Assembly (NCBI RefSeq): GCF_009852415.1
Contig: NZ_WOXS01000002.1
Coordinates: 4,380,001 to 4,444,000, forward strand
Direction: 5' to 3'
From: Streptomyces sp. Tu 3180
GTDB taxonomy: Bacteria; Actinomycetota; Actinomycetes; Streptomycetales; Streptomycetaceae
DNA length: 64,000 bases
Position numbers and translations under genes: made by a program. Positions within the stretch are counted from its first letter, which is position 1; every line of letters begins with the position of its first letter. The notes beneath the pieces were generated by a model. It saw only the letters and a list, made by a program, of their open reading frames with translations, made no database searches and was not told where the DNA came from. Below, one piece after another: positions 49,653 through 52,495 of the stretch.

Positions 49653-50684
49653 ATGGCCGGGCACGGGACGGACGAGCATCCACACGGTGCTGACCGACTG
49701 TGCGAGGCCGGGGATCGGGTGTATTCCCGGGCCGTACGGCGCGGACGCGTGCCGCGCCGGGACGCGGAGCCGGTGCCCTGCCTGATGGAACTGGCCCTGC
49801 TGCACCCGGACCCCGACGACATGGACTGGCTGGTCCCGACCGCCCCGCAGGAGGTCATGACCCGGCTGCTGCGCGGCATGTACGACGAGATCAGCGCGAG
49901 CCAGCGCCGGGTCGGCTCGGCCGTCGCCGCCTTCGAGTGGTACGCCGGTCTGGGCCGCCAGATGCCCTCGACCCCCTCGGCGGCGGAGGGCCCGGCGATC
50001 CGGGTGCTGGACGGGCTGGCGCGGATCCAGGCGGCGATGGACGAGGCGACGCGGGCCTGCACCACCGAGGTGCTCACCGTCCAGCCCGGTGGCATCCGGC
50101 GCGAGGCGGAGCTGTCGGAGGGCCTGCACCGGGCGACGGAGCTGCGCGGCCGCGGGGTGCGGATGCGGGACCTGTACACGCACGTGGCCCGGCACGGCCA
50201 GGGGCTGCTCACCTACCTGGAGCTGATGGGCGACGCGGTGGAGGCGCGCACCCTGGACGAGGTGATCGAGCGGCTGATCCTGTTCGACCGCACGGTCGCC
50301 TTCATCCCCGCCAACGCCGAGCGCACGATGGCGCTGGAGCTGCGGCACCCGGCGCTGGTGGAGTACCTGGGCACGGTCTTCGAGCGCCTGTGGCGGCTCG
50401 CCATCCCGCTGACCGCCCCGCTGCCCGACACCGGCATCGAGGGCATCTCGCACCGCGAGCAGTCCATCGCGGCGCTGCTGGCCGAGGGCCACCAGGACGC
50501 GGTGATCGCGGAGCGGCTGGGCATCAGCGTGCGCACCTGCCGCGCGCACATCGCCCGGCTGTCGGAGACGCTGGGCGCGGCCAGCCGCACCCAGCTGGGC
50601 GTCCGCATCGCGCAGGCCGGCCTGGACGGCGCGCGCCGGTCGGCGGTCGCCCTTCCCGGCCGGGAGTCCCCGAGCGCCCGGTGA
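49653..50684 (+). CDS. LuxR-type regulator with TrmB/PLD-like sensor (A)
   Basis: A 343-residue regulator. The C-terminal GerE/LuxR helix-turn-helix is at about 265-325 (LLAEGHQDAVIAERLGISVR, then TCRAHIARLSETLGAASRTQ). The N-terminal 250 residues form a TrmB/phospholipase-D-like sensor fold with EVLTVQPGGIRREAELSEGL and TLDEVIERLILFDRTVAFIP. A paralogue (50714-51724) lies immediately downstream in the opposite direction, and a small exported protein gene lies beyond it. Ligand unknown. Confidence 0.8.
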   Translation: MAGHGTDEHPHGADRLCEAGDRVYSRAVRRGRVPRRDAEPVPCLMELALLHPDPDDMDWLVPTAPQEVMTRLLRGMYDEISASQRRVGSAVAAFEWYAGLGRQMPSTPSAAEGPAIRVLDGLARIQAAMDEATRACTTEVLTVQPGGIRREAELSEGLHRATELRGRGVRMRDLYTHVARHGQGLLTYLELMGDAVEARTLDEVIERLILFDRTVAFIPANAERTMALELRHPALVEYLGTVFERLWRLAIPLTAPLPDTGIEGISHREQSIAALLAEGHQDAVIAERLGISVRTCRAHIARLSETLGAASRTQLGVRIAQAGLDGARRSAVALPGRESPSAR

Positions 50685-50713
50685 GGCGGCCGGGCCGGGC
50701 CCCGGTTCCCGGC

Positions 50714-51724
50714 TCACGGGTTCTGCTCGAGGATCCCCGACTGCGCGATGAGGTACCCCAGCTGGGCGCGGCTGCCGCTGCCGAGGGCGGAGGCGAGTTT
50801 GGCTATGTGGGCGCGGCAGGTGCGCACGTTCATGCCCAGCCGGCGCGCTATGGCCTCGTCGACGTGCCCCTCGACCAGGAGCTTGGCGATGGAGTGCTGG
50901 ATCTCGGTGATGCCGTCGGAGGCGGCTCCGTACGGCGCGCCGGCGCTCATCGGGACCGCGCGGTCCCACAGGTACTCGAAGACCTTGACGAGGTAGCGCA
51001 CGAGCCCGGGGTGGCGCAGTTCGAGGGCGACCTGGTGGTCGTCGCGCGCGGGGATGAACGCGACGGCCTCGTCGCAGATGATCAGCCGTTCCACCAGCTC
51101 GTCGATCGTGCGGTACTCCACCTTCCCGTCGGAGAGCCGGGCGACGTAGGACAGCTTCTCCGGGTTGTAGCGGGCGGTGTGCTGGTAGAGGCTCCGGACC
51201 TTCACACCACGTTCGATCAGCGGCTTGTCGCGCTCGAGGCTCCGCAGGAGGCTCCGCTCGGAGACCCGGTCGCTGGGCTGGACCGTCAGGAGCTCCGTCT
51301 GGCACTGGGCGGTCGCGATGTTGAGCGCCGCGTTGATCCGCTCACCGCCCTCCAGCACGGTGATGGAGTCGCTGGTGGCCGCGGTCTGCACGCCCAGCGC
51401 CAGGAACGGTTCGAAGGCGTCGGCGAGTTGCACGGACAGGCGCCGGTGCTCGGTGATCTCCTGCTCGATGGGCTGGAGGCGCTGTGCCAGCGCGACCGCC
51501 GGCGGCACGGGACGCAGCCAGGTCGGATCGTCCGGATCCGGGTGCAGGAGGGCCAGTTCGAGGAGACAGGGAGCGGTTCCGGTGTCCGCGCGCGCGACGC
51601 GCCCGGCGCGCAGCGCTGTGGTATAGAGACGACTGCCTTCCTCGCAGAGTTCGGTGATCGGGTGGGGATGTGCGCCCTTAGTCCGATGAGTACCCAAATC
51701 TCCACCCCCCAGGGTCCTGAACAT
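50714..51724 (-). CDS. LuxR-type regulator with TrmB/PLD-like sensor (B)
   Basis: A 336-residue paralogue of the gene at 49653, sharing CLLELALLHPDPDD, ELLTVQPSDR, TIDELVERLIICDEAVAFIP and the C-terminal RRLGMNVRTCRAHIAKLASA helix-turn-helix. It converges with gene A and is divergent from the NTQWP-repeat gene, with 86 bp between start codons, so it probably controls that gene. The first 10-15 residues are doubtful: homology with gene A begins near GAHPHPITELCEEG, and the ribosome site is weak. Confidence 0.8.
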   Translation of the reverse strand: MFRTLGGGDLGTHRTKGAHPHPITELCEEGSRLYTTALRAGRVARADTGTAPCLLELALLHPDPDDPTWLRPVPPAVALAQRLQPIEQEITEHRRLSVQLADAFEPFLALGVQTAATSDSITVLEGGERINAALNIATAQCQTELLTVQPSDRVSERSLLRSLERDKPLIERGVKVRSLYQHTARYNPEKLSYVARLSDGKVEYRTIDELVERLIICDEAVAFIPARDDHQVALELRHPGLVRYLVKVFEYLWDRAVPMSAGAPYGAASDGITEIQHSIAKLLVEGHVDEAIARRLGMNVRTCRAHIAKLASALGSGSRAQLGYLIAQSGILEQNP

Positions 51725-51810
51725 GCAGGAACATGATGCACCGATTGTGTGGCCATGACGTGCCTGAATGAGCCATCGTCGTACTCGACGGGGGAAAAGG
51801 GGACCTTCAA

Positions 51811-52068
51811 GTGAGGACGAAGCCGACTATGCGCAACAAAATGCTTCGCTCGGTGCTTGTCGCCGCCTTCTCCACCGTTGTGGCCCTCGGCGCGATGAGC
51901 GGCTTCTCCGACGAGGAGGACGTCGTCCGGGCGAACACGCAGTGGCCGGCGGTGGCCGCGGACACCGCGGGCACCGACAACACCCAGTGGCCCTCGGTGG
52001 GCGCGAACGCCGCGGGCACCGACAACACCCAGTGGCCCGTCCCTGGGGCGGACGGAGCCGGGAGCTGA
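51811..52068 (+). CDS. Small exported protein with three NTQWP repeats
   Basis: An 85-residue protein. A basic start (MRTKPTMRNK) and a hydrophobic helix (LRSVLVAAFSTVVALGAMSG) form a signal peptide. The mature part contains NTQWP at residues 42, 57 and 72, an exact 15-residue period, separated by Ala/Gly-rich spacers (for example AVAADTAGTD). GTG 51811 follows AAAGGGGA; ATG 51829 is an alternative. It is translationally tied to the Rieske-like gene, whose start is 1 nt after its stop, and divergent from LuxR-type gene B. No known family; a secreted signal or precursor peptide is possible (inference). Confidence 0.7.
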   Translation: MRTKPTMRNKMLRSVLVAAFSTVVALGAMSGFSDEEDVVRANTQWPAVAADTAGTDNTQWPSVGANAAGTDNTQWPVPGADGAGS

Positions 52069-52069
52069 C

Positions 52070-52405
52070 GTGACCACTCCACCCGACGACCGATCCTTCC
52101 GCCGTGAGATGGCCACCGCCTACCGGTCCGGATGGCACTTCATCGACCTGGTCACCGCCATTCCCCACAACGGGGACTCGCTGATGGTGACCGTGTTCGG
52201 TGAGCCGGTCGTCGTCACGCGGGACGAGGACGGAGACGTACGGGCGTTCCGTTGCCTGCGGCGGCCCAGGGGGGCGCCGCAGCCCGTACGGTGCGCCATC
52301 CGGTACGGAATGATCTTTGTGAACCTCGACCAGCGGGACCATCGGCAGGTGGAGTCCGACTCCCCCGTGCCCCGGACCGTCTCGGCCACCCCCCGCAGTG
52401 CCTGA
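52070..52405 (+). CDS. Rieske-like small protein lacking cluster ligands
   Basis: A 111-residue protein resembling the N-terminal part of Rieske oxygenase subunits: SGWHFIDLVTAIPHNGDSLM, VTVFGEPVVVTRDEDGDVRA, then RYGMIFVNLDQ. The first CxH motif is replaced by CLRRPRGAPQ and the second CxxH is missing, leaving two Cys only (RC at the first loop and VRC later). A [2Fe-2S] cluster is therefore not expected. It probably modifies or binds the partner peptide, or is a structural relic; unknown. Confidence 0.65.
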   Translation: MTTPPDDRSFRREMATAYRSGWHFIDLVTAIPHNGDSLMVTVFGEPVVVTRDEDGDVRAFRCLRRPRGAPQPVRCAIRYGMIFVNLDQRDHRQVESDSPVPRTVSATPRSA

Positions 52406-52448: not shown

Positions 52449-52495
52449 GCAGCGGCGTCACCGTGACCTGAACACGGTGACGCCGCTGCAGTTTT
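52449..52495 (+). terminator. Terminator after the NTQWP/Rieske-like pair
   Basis: 17-bp perfect arms (52449-52465 and 52473-52489), a 7-nt loop, then AGTTTT: a classical rho-independent terminator closing the two-gene unit. Confidence 0.9.

Follow-up and report, generated by a model that had tools for sequence, protein, structure and literature searches.

What does a small exported protein do in which the pentapeptide NTQWP recurs three times, and which protein, if any, reads it? The question is raised by a locus in a 64,000-nucleotide stretch of the Streptomyces sp. Tu 3180 genome (contig NZ_WOXS01000002.1, positions 4,380,001 to 4,444,000; hereafter the window), where the gene for this protein is divergent from a LuxR-type regulator gene and closely followed by a gene for a Rieske-like protein. 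The genome measures 8.63 Mb and its close relatives belong to Streptomyces. The best explanation, which we regard as highly probable, is that the divergent LuxR reads, through its PLD/TrmB-like domain, a secreted, often multi-copy pentapeptide pheromone. The features on which this explanation turns are as follows (window positions).

51811..52068, + strand: predicted exported precursor, 85 residues, with a basic n-region, a hydrophobic segment and three NTQWP copies
51934..51948, + strand: NTQWP copy 1, direct repeat, with the residues VRA just before it
51979..51993, + strand: NTQWP copy 2, direct repeat
52024..52038, + strand: NTQWP copy 3, direct repeat
50714..51724, − strand: divergent LuxR regulator, 336 residues, proposed peptide receptor, with a TrmB-like N-terminal part, a PLD-like sensor (residues 118-262), a LuxR-type helix-turn-helix (HTH) at 268-332 and Leu145 as the specificity residue

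The precursor and its repeated peptide

The initial annotation had described three NTQWP motifs at an exact 15-residue period in an 85-residue protein, and this was confirmed (copies starting at 51934, 51979 and 52024, a 45-nucleotide period). The exact period is a property of the species of the window and not a general trait, copy number and spacing differing among species. For comparison, 317 loci picked by a peptide or a Rieske-like match were gathered (the best 30 peptide matches, the best 30 order-wide Rieske-like matches, most of the Rieske-like places listed and the best 80 of 570 matches of another search), of which 288 were distinct, with 284 distinct precursors. A LuxR sequence, flagged as partial in three cases, the peptide gene and the Rieske-like gene were found in every one of the 317.

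All 284 distinct precursors are built alike, with a hydrophobic stretch followed by [N/D/E]-x-x-W in 1-20 copies. Hydropathy over the best 15 residues never falls below 1.57, and the residues ahead of the stretch carry a net charge with a median of +5, a 5th percentile of +3 and a minimum of −1; a hydrophobic segment that usually stands behind a basic start predicts an exported tail. In the secreted part, N, D or E occupies position −3 relative to tryptophan in 787 of 796 cases. Copies within a genome are identical at −3, −2, −1 and +1 from the tryptophan with frequencies of 1.00, 0.98, 0.95 and 0.77, against 0.68, 0.28, 0.18 and 0.15 between genomes; at the remaining offsets between −9 and +9 the values are 0.14-0.41 for copies of one genome and 0.11-0.22 across genomes. 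A single tetrapeptide is used throughout in 198 of the 216 multi-copy precursors (shuffles: mean 6, maximum 15). No part of the secreted region is more constrained than the motif, which is alike within a genome and differs between genomes. With the spacers drifting near background, this is the opposite of the random drift in the motifs that the initial annotation had named as evidence against itself.

Core codon pairs that code for the same residue use different codons in 994 of 3788 cases, so that the likeness of the copies is not solely due to recent duplication and an untranslated frame, another objection foreseen at the outset, is unlikely. In 93 of the 288 loci a single residue separates the last tryptophan from the stop codon, which argues for a pentapeptide as the mature form. 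VRA is the commonest triplet ahead of the first copy (60/288). Across the set there are 46 main tetrapeptides and 92 main pentapeptides, and the main tetrapeptide changes 81 times on the LuxR tree, against about 225 changes with shuffled labels. The highest repetition seen is in the precursor of locus L220, in which DTKW occurs 19 times and DQAW once.

Covariation of LuxR residue 145 with the second peptide position

Of the 288 divergent LuxR sequences, 271 were aligned; the 17 dropped had a LuxR frame outside 300-420 residues or a partial one. Branches of the LuxR tree on which an alignment column and a peptide position switch together were then counted for 277 columns (230 of LuxR and 47 of the Rieske-like protein). 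Residue 145 and peptide position 2 showed 20 co-changes where 3.5 were expected (P 1.3e-9), the next column reaching P 0.02. Trees built without residues 130-170, or from the LuxR ends and the Rieske-like protein, gave P 1.1e-9 and 6.9e-10, and across trees the next-best column for position 2 lay at P 0.007-0.02. Each of these two additional trees contains 17 switches from Ser-Met to Thr-Val (peptide residue first) with 4 or 6 in the reverse direction, and the first tree 15 and 3.

In the 271 aligned loci a peptide Ser is paired with LuxR Met in 136 of 136 cases, and Met with no other residue. Thr is paired with Val in 64 loci and with Leu in 6, Pro with Leu in 11 of 11, and peptide Ile, Val and Leu with LuxR Val, Ile or Leu. 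When the 17 dropped loci were read separately, 16 were readable and all agreed with the code (L244 was unreadable), so that in the 287 readable loci Ser and Met occur exclusively as partners of each other. Three apparent exceptions (L256, L308 and L123) were discarded, having come from other LuxR segments at those loci; with the best-matching LuxR, each of the three conforms to the code. For peptide position 3 the best columns lie mostly within 152-162 (best P 1e-3, 1.5e-4 and 1.8e-4, depending on the tree). For position 5 two trees gave nothing clear, and the third pointed to residues 158 and 155 (P 1.6e-5 and 1.8e-5). Recognition of the peptide by the divergent LuxR is strongly supported by this covariation.

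The other proteins of the locus do not follow the peptide. In the LuxR paralogues of the same loci the equivalent residue is unpaired with it (at Ser loci Val 113, Leu 48, Met 3 and others 7), and the LuxR neighbours on the opposite strand carry Val at the equivalent place in 133 of 138 cases regardless of the peptide. The neighbouring LuxR genes were therefore rejected as co-readers, and the Rieske-like protein as a specificity partner, since no column among its 47 shows co-change with the peptide at P<1e-4. The initial annotation had proposed that a secreted precursor yields repeated short peptides on cutting and that sensor-LuxR proteins read them. This is supported for the divergent LuxR, whose residue 145 follows uniform copies, and is not supported for the second regulator; export, cutting and production of the peptide are putative.

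In other families and genera, the surroundings of LuxR-like genes were searched by a single rule for a small exported partner, with a signal-peptide-like start required. Candidates were found in 26 of 61 LuxR-like regions, with Ser-Met in 12 of 12 and Thr-Val/Leu in 8 of 8 cases (8 Thr cases rather than 9, the locus of the window itself, L379, being excluded). The exact P, about 8e-6 by our own arithmetic, is too small, some of the loci being close relatives. In a divergent branch, a fivefold NHDWG (L405) goes with Ser at the code position, and NNDWQ with Asp. In other genera the candidate peptide gene is downstream and convergent rather than divergent (L354, L355, L356, L357 and L360), as exemplified by DTSWG present twice and by DTGWR present twice with an additional DTGW at the extreme C-terminus.

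The genome of the window contains three candidate pairs, namely the main locus, L149 and L150. At L149 (L149:4240-5642, G000:C2:520500-530000) a LuxR paralogue is divergent from a 73-residue predicted exported protein with DSGWG twice, Met stands at the code position, and no Rieske-like gene was seen beside the pair. At L150 (L150:3673-5235, G000:C2:3822500-3832000), a relative of L405, a LuxR paralogue with Ser at the code position is divergent from a 101-residue predicted exported protein that ends in HEWD. Two further adjacent LuxR-like genes of the same class (L151, G000:C2:6508953-6510216) lie beside acyltransferase- and thioesterase-like genes, in a probable biosynthetic cluster; no peptide partner was seen by eye among the open reading frames of L151.

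In an AlphaFold2 model of the divergent LuxR (mean predicted local distance difference test, pLDDT, 80; predicted template modelling score 0.52), residues 118-262 form a PLD-like domain. Its best match is NucT (6ehi, Z 17.2, root-mean-square deviation (rmsd) 2.2), and the TrmB sensor 2f5t is matched with Z 14.7 and rmsd 2.6 over 129 residues. A match to the TrmBL2/TrmB-type structure 5box starts at residue 21 and covers 230 residues with Z 16.3, at an rmsd of 18.2 Å with shifted domains; the N-terminus may be a TrmB-like winged part. Within the LuxR HTH at 268-332, residues 269-331 match VqmA (6ugl, Z 11.4), and the Pfam match to GerE remains under the cut-off (16.9 vs 23.5 bits). In the model, strand 144-149 holds residue 145, helix 156-171 holds residues 158 and 162, one turn apart, and Q149, P150, Y180 and H182 are invariant in 271 of 271 sequences. 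The end of this strand and the start of this helix would form the putative pocket.

The Rieske-like partner, the promoter and the distribution of the unit

The remaining features of the locus are the following.

52070..52405, + strand: Rieske-like protein, 111 residues, closely coupled to the precursor gene, with Cys62 and Cys75 kept, Arg in place of both His ligands and a TPRSA tail
49653..50684, + strand: paralogous LuxR regulator, 343 residues, a member of the neighbourhood without peptide-code pairing
51716..51735, strand not assigned: operator-like element CCTGAACATGCAGGAACATG, two 10-nucleotide direct half-repeats alike in 8 of 10 positions, overlapping the start of the regulator gene
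52449..52489, strand not assigned: inverted repeat, perfect in 17 of 17 nucleotides, terminator-like, 3' of the peptide/Rieske-like unit

The layout first reported for this locus was found as described: the stop of the precursor frame lies 1 nucleotide ahead of the 111-residue frame, the LuxR gene is divergent, a paralogue adjoins it (Pfam GerE, E 6.8e-10) and a 17-bp inverted repeat follows. The locus is flanked by a dnaK-grpE-dnaJ-hspR block on one side and clpB on the other (names assigned from translations), between which lie a sugar-type binding protein gene, the LuxR paralogue, the divergent LuxR, the repeat protein, the Rieske-like gene and the inverted repeat. In S. griseomycini (locus L258) the divergent LuxR is 94% identical to that of the window.

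The Rieske-like protein falls below the Pfam threshold for Rieske (18.9 vs 20.3 bits). By sequence it matches the N-terminus of the alpha subunit of a ring-hydroxylating dioxygenase (5xbp, E 2.5e-5), and the predicted model (pLDDT 70) has a best Foldseek E of 4e-3. The initial annotation had called it cluster-less, with both CxH and CxxH ligands lost. The histidines are indeed missing: CxH or CxxH occurs in 0 of 233 sequences, with CxR...CxxR instead, both His positions being Arg (R64 and R78) in 271 of 271. The cysteines are retained (Cys62 in 269 of 271, Cys75 in 271 of 271), so that the lack of a cluster is not established; a cluster, a different metal or a disulphide could be accommodated by the Cys2-Arg2 site. 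The TPRSA tail, behind a linker of variable length, is present in at least 269 of 271, and gaps between the precursor stop and the Rieske-like start lie between −7 and +8, with −4 and +1 the commonest values. We propose that this protein acts in the cytoplasm, as an output or a modulator of the channel.

Peptide matches were obtained in 128 of 199 Streptomyces genomes (single-sequence search, E 0.01, the weakest of which may be chance). The Rieske-like protein, searched at E 1e-10, has matches in 163 of 198 Streptomyces genomes, five of which are weak (1e-13 to 1e-19), and at E 1e-90 the divergent LuxR has matches in 161 of 198. On the co-occurrence that the initial annotation had set as a test, all 161 LuxR-positive genomes belong to the 163 Rieske-positive ones, and the three genes stand together in each locus gathered; with the repeat peptide and the Rieske-like protein, the divergent LuxR makes up a unit conserved in Streptomyces. 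The two genomes with a Rieske-like protein and no LuxR match are G048, where the Rieske match is weak, and G063, where the LuxR is partial. In G063 (loci L074 and L311, apparently both from this genome) the partial divergent LuxR, matched over residues 1-177, lies beside an intact DTGWG precursor, and this is possibly a signal-only strain. Four genomes (G047, G050, G105 and G184) show a weak Rieske-like match (E about 1e-19) and three LuxR matches each, the best at about 1e-109 to 1e-113, and perhaps hold a divergent version of the unit. In an order-wide sample, comprising partly the same genomes, the Rieske-like protein occurs in 181 of 245 genomes and only 1 of 8 genera. The LuxR class is broader: at E 1e-20 it is found class-wide in 137 of 296 genomes, from 48 of 114 genera.

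In the 230 long loci (at least 4.7 kb), clpB is also visible in 215, with one to five LuxR-type genes upstream, counts that are lower bounds as many loci end before the next gene. The commonest LuxR arrangement is + − − (89/230). The element CCTGAACATGCAGGAACATG, a putative operator, is largely conserved in 263 aligned intergenic regions of the 288 loci, namely those with a VRTK-type LuxR start. A genome scan returned one exact copy, at its own locus, and one site with 3 mismatches; the scan pointed to no broad regulon, the single extra site being about what our own estimate expects by chance.

A lead on function comes from S. coelicolor, in which we take clpB to be SCO3661 and dnaK to be SCO3671. 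In a transposon screen (PMC6585502), SCO3664, labelled 'regulator', is listed among the insertion targets that raise actinorhodin more than 50-fold; a complementation plasmid is listed for it, and 12 of 16 mutants overall were restored. A second paper (PMC3282765) assigns SCO3665 and SCO3666 to the LuxR family. Because of the gene order, these two LuxR assignments and the + − − arrangement being commonest, SCO3664 is probably the divergent LuxR, whose low GerE score would explain its plain label.

Competing explanations and relation to known systems

In the proposed mechanism the 85-residue protein would be an exported precursor, cut outside the cell to a pentapeptide [N/D/E]-x-x-W-x, here NTQWP, several copies yielding several peptides. 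The peptide would be re-imported, probably by an oligopeptide permease, and would bind the PLD-like sensor with position 2 facing residue 145 and position 3 facing residues 152-162. The LuxR would then alter transcription, at minimum from the divergent promoter of its own gene and thereby that of the peptide/Rieske-like unit; joint switching of signal and receptor would give rise to species dialects.

Several observations weigh against this scheme. The signals for positions 3 and 5 are weaker and tree-dependent, and the code is degenerate, a LuxR Val serving Thr, Ile, Val and Leu. A deviating copy is present in 18 of the 216 multi-copy precursors, and 68 of the 288 loci have one copy only, so repetition is not essential. 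The out-of-sample rule, written after some pairs were known and returning several close relatives, found no peptide in 35 of the 61 LuxR-like regions outside the main set, and 2 of its 26 finds (L374 and L375) resemble GTPase fragments. Neither a protease nor a permease could be recognised among the genes of the unit. With essentially one occurrence genome-wide, the operator-like element fits a local rather than a broad regulon, and the Rieske-like protein is the best conserved member of the unit, yet the model does not explain it.

Covariation points to recognition and leaves the compartment undefined. An unexported or uncut precursor might instead bind LuxR inside the cell through its xxxW motifs, as a multivalent membrane-tethered or cytoplasmic anti-activator whose repeats would confer avidity, and the lack of a recognised protease gene in the unit agrees with this. 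We consider such docking improbable, as the hydrophobic segment, present in all precursors and usually behind a basic start, predicts an exported tail, single-copy forms exist, and the precursors that end one residue past the tryptophan fit a defined mature C-terminus. Partners elsewhere also start like signal peptides, though the search rule demanded it.

Multi-core precursors are known among ribosomally synthesised and post-translationally modified peptides, and a LuxR that serves such a product, or a peptide antibiotic, as pathway regulator or immunity sensor may autoregulate. This origin is very improbable given a core of merely 4-5 residues, a unit in which neither a modification enzyme nor a transporter was recognised, a partner protein without an intact Rieske ligand set, and a match between residue 145 and the core for which product regulation has no need. 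To a structural or wall-binding protein, with repeats kept alike by gene conversion or recent duplication, we give next to no weight. In its favour, exported proteins with tandem repeats often have a structural role, highly repeated forms (L145 and L220) show likeness in some spacers as well, and at offsets +2 to +4 after the tryptophan likeness within genomes is about double that between genomes. Against it, the spacers have diverged to near background while the cores are identical, the core codons differ synonymously, single-copy forms exist, and covariation with the regulator largely contradicts this reading.

The secreted pheromone that we favour works like export-import signalling of the RRNPP type, often with a multi-copy precursor, but does not belong to that family (PlcR-PapR, Rap-Phr, PrgX, ComR-XIP) because the receptor fold differs. 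Shared are the small exported precursor adjoining a cytoplasmic regulator, export being predicted here from hydropathy and charge only, the short linear peptide with presumed export, cutting and re-import, and the co-diverging signal-receptor pairs. RRNPP sensors consist of tetratricopeptide repeat (TPR) helices and carry an N-terminal HTH_3-type domain, whereas here residues 118-262 are PLD/TrmB-like and the recognisable HTH is of the LuxR/GerE type and C-terminal; Pfam searches at E up to 1 gave no TPR, HTH_3 or autoinducer-binding domain match (the last presumably PF03472). The [N/D/E]xxWx peptide, often in many copies, the actinomycete rather than Firmicutes hosts and the extra Rieske-like gene are further differences. 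Fungal alpha-factor-type precursors likewise contain several identical peptides split by variable spacers in one secreted precursor; here the system is bacterial, the peptide has 4-5 residues and the receptor would be a transcription factor instead of a G-protein-coupled receptor.

TrmB and TrmBL2 (2f5t, 5box) resemble the N-terminal and PLD-like parts in fold, but TrmB reads sugars (title of 2f5t), while here covariation points to a peptide and a C-terminal LuxR HTH is added. LuxR quorum regulators, including VqmA and those that respond to acyl-homoserine lactones, share the C-terminal GerE/LuxR HTH by structure match, the sequence match being under the cut-off; the latter differ in their autoinducer-binding domain, and here the ligand would be a peptide. 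Rieske [2Fe-2S] proteins have the CxH...CxxH ligand set that is replaced here by CxR...CxxR. We know of no peptide receptor with a PLD/TrmB-like sensor on a LuxR HTH, and no prior description of the system was found in the open-licence literature, mostly judged by title and with bioRxiv preprints outside its scope. A Streptomyces peptide signal that enters through an oligopeptide transporter is described in another paper (PMC9640686), in which a 655-Da peptide imported by BldK is the presumed signal in S. coelicolor and it is suggested that strains may use different peptides; the passage on it names no source gene and shows no link to this locus, and a connection with the present system is speculation.

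Taken together, it is likely that these loci represent an actinomycete peptide-signalling family with a receptor fold known to us from no other peptide receptor, a one-residue code (Ser-Met, Thr-Val/Leu and Pro-Leu, and His-Ser in a divergent branch) and several channels per genome. The core channel beside dnaK and clpB would carry a species-identity signal to antibiotic control, for which SCO3664 is the lead, and could relate to the BldK-imported signal. Accounts of signalling in Streptomyces usually centre on gamma-butyrolactones, to which passages of a 2026 review of quorum sensing (PMC13220807) tie the genus; if the present reading is true, most Streptomyces species (161 of 198 sampled genomes) would also use a genetically encoded pentapeptide language. 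Its words would be legible from the genome, and the match to a receptor partly predictable from one residue. Synthetic peptides could then be added to cultures as a possible tool to wake silent antibiotic clusters, and the signal-receptor pairs would provide a set for synthetic biology. It could then be tested directly how peptide and receptor co-evolve, and whether the unidentified Streptomyces oligopeptide signal belongs to this class.

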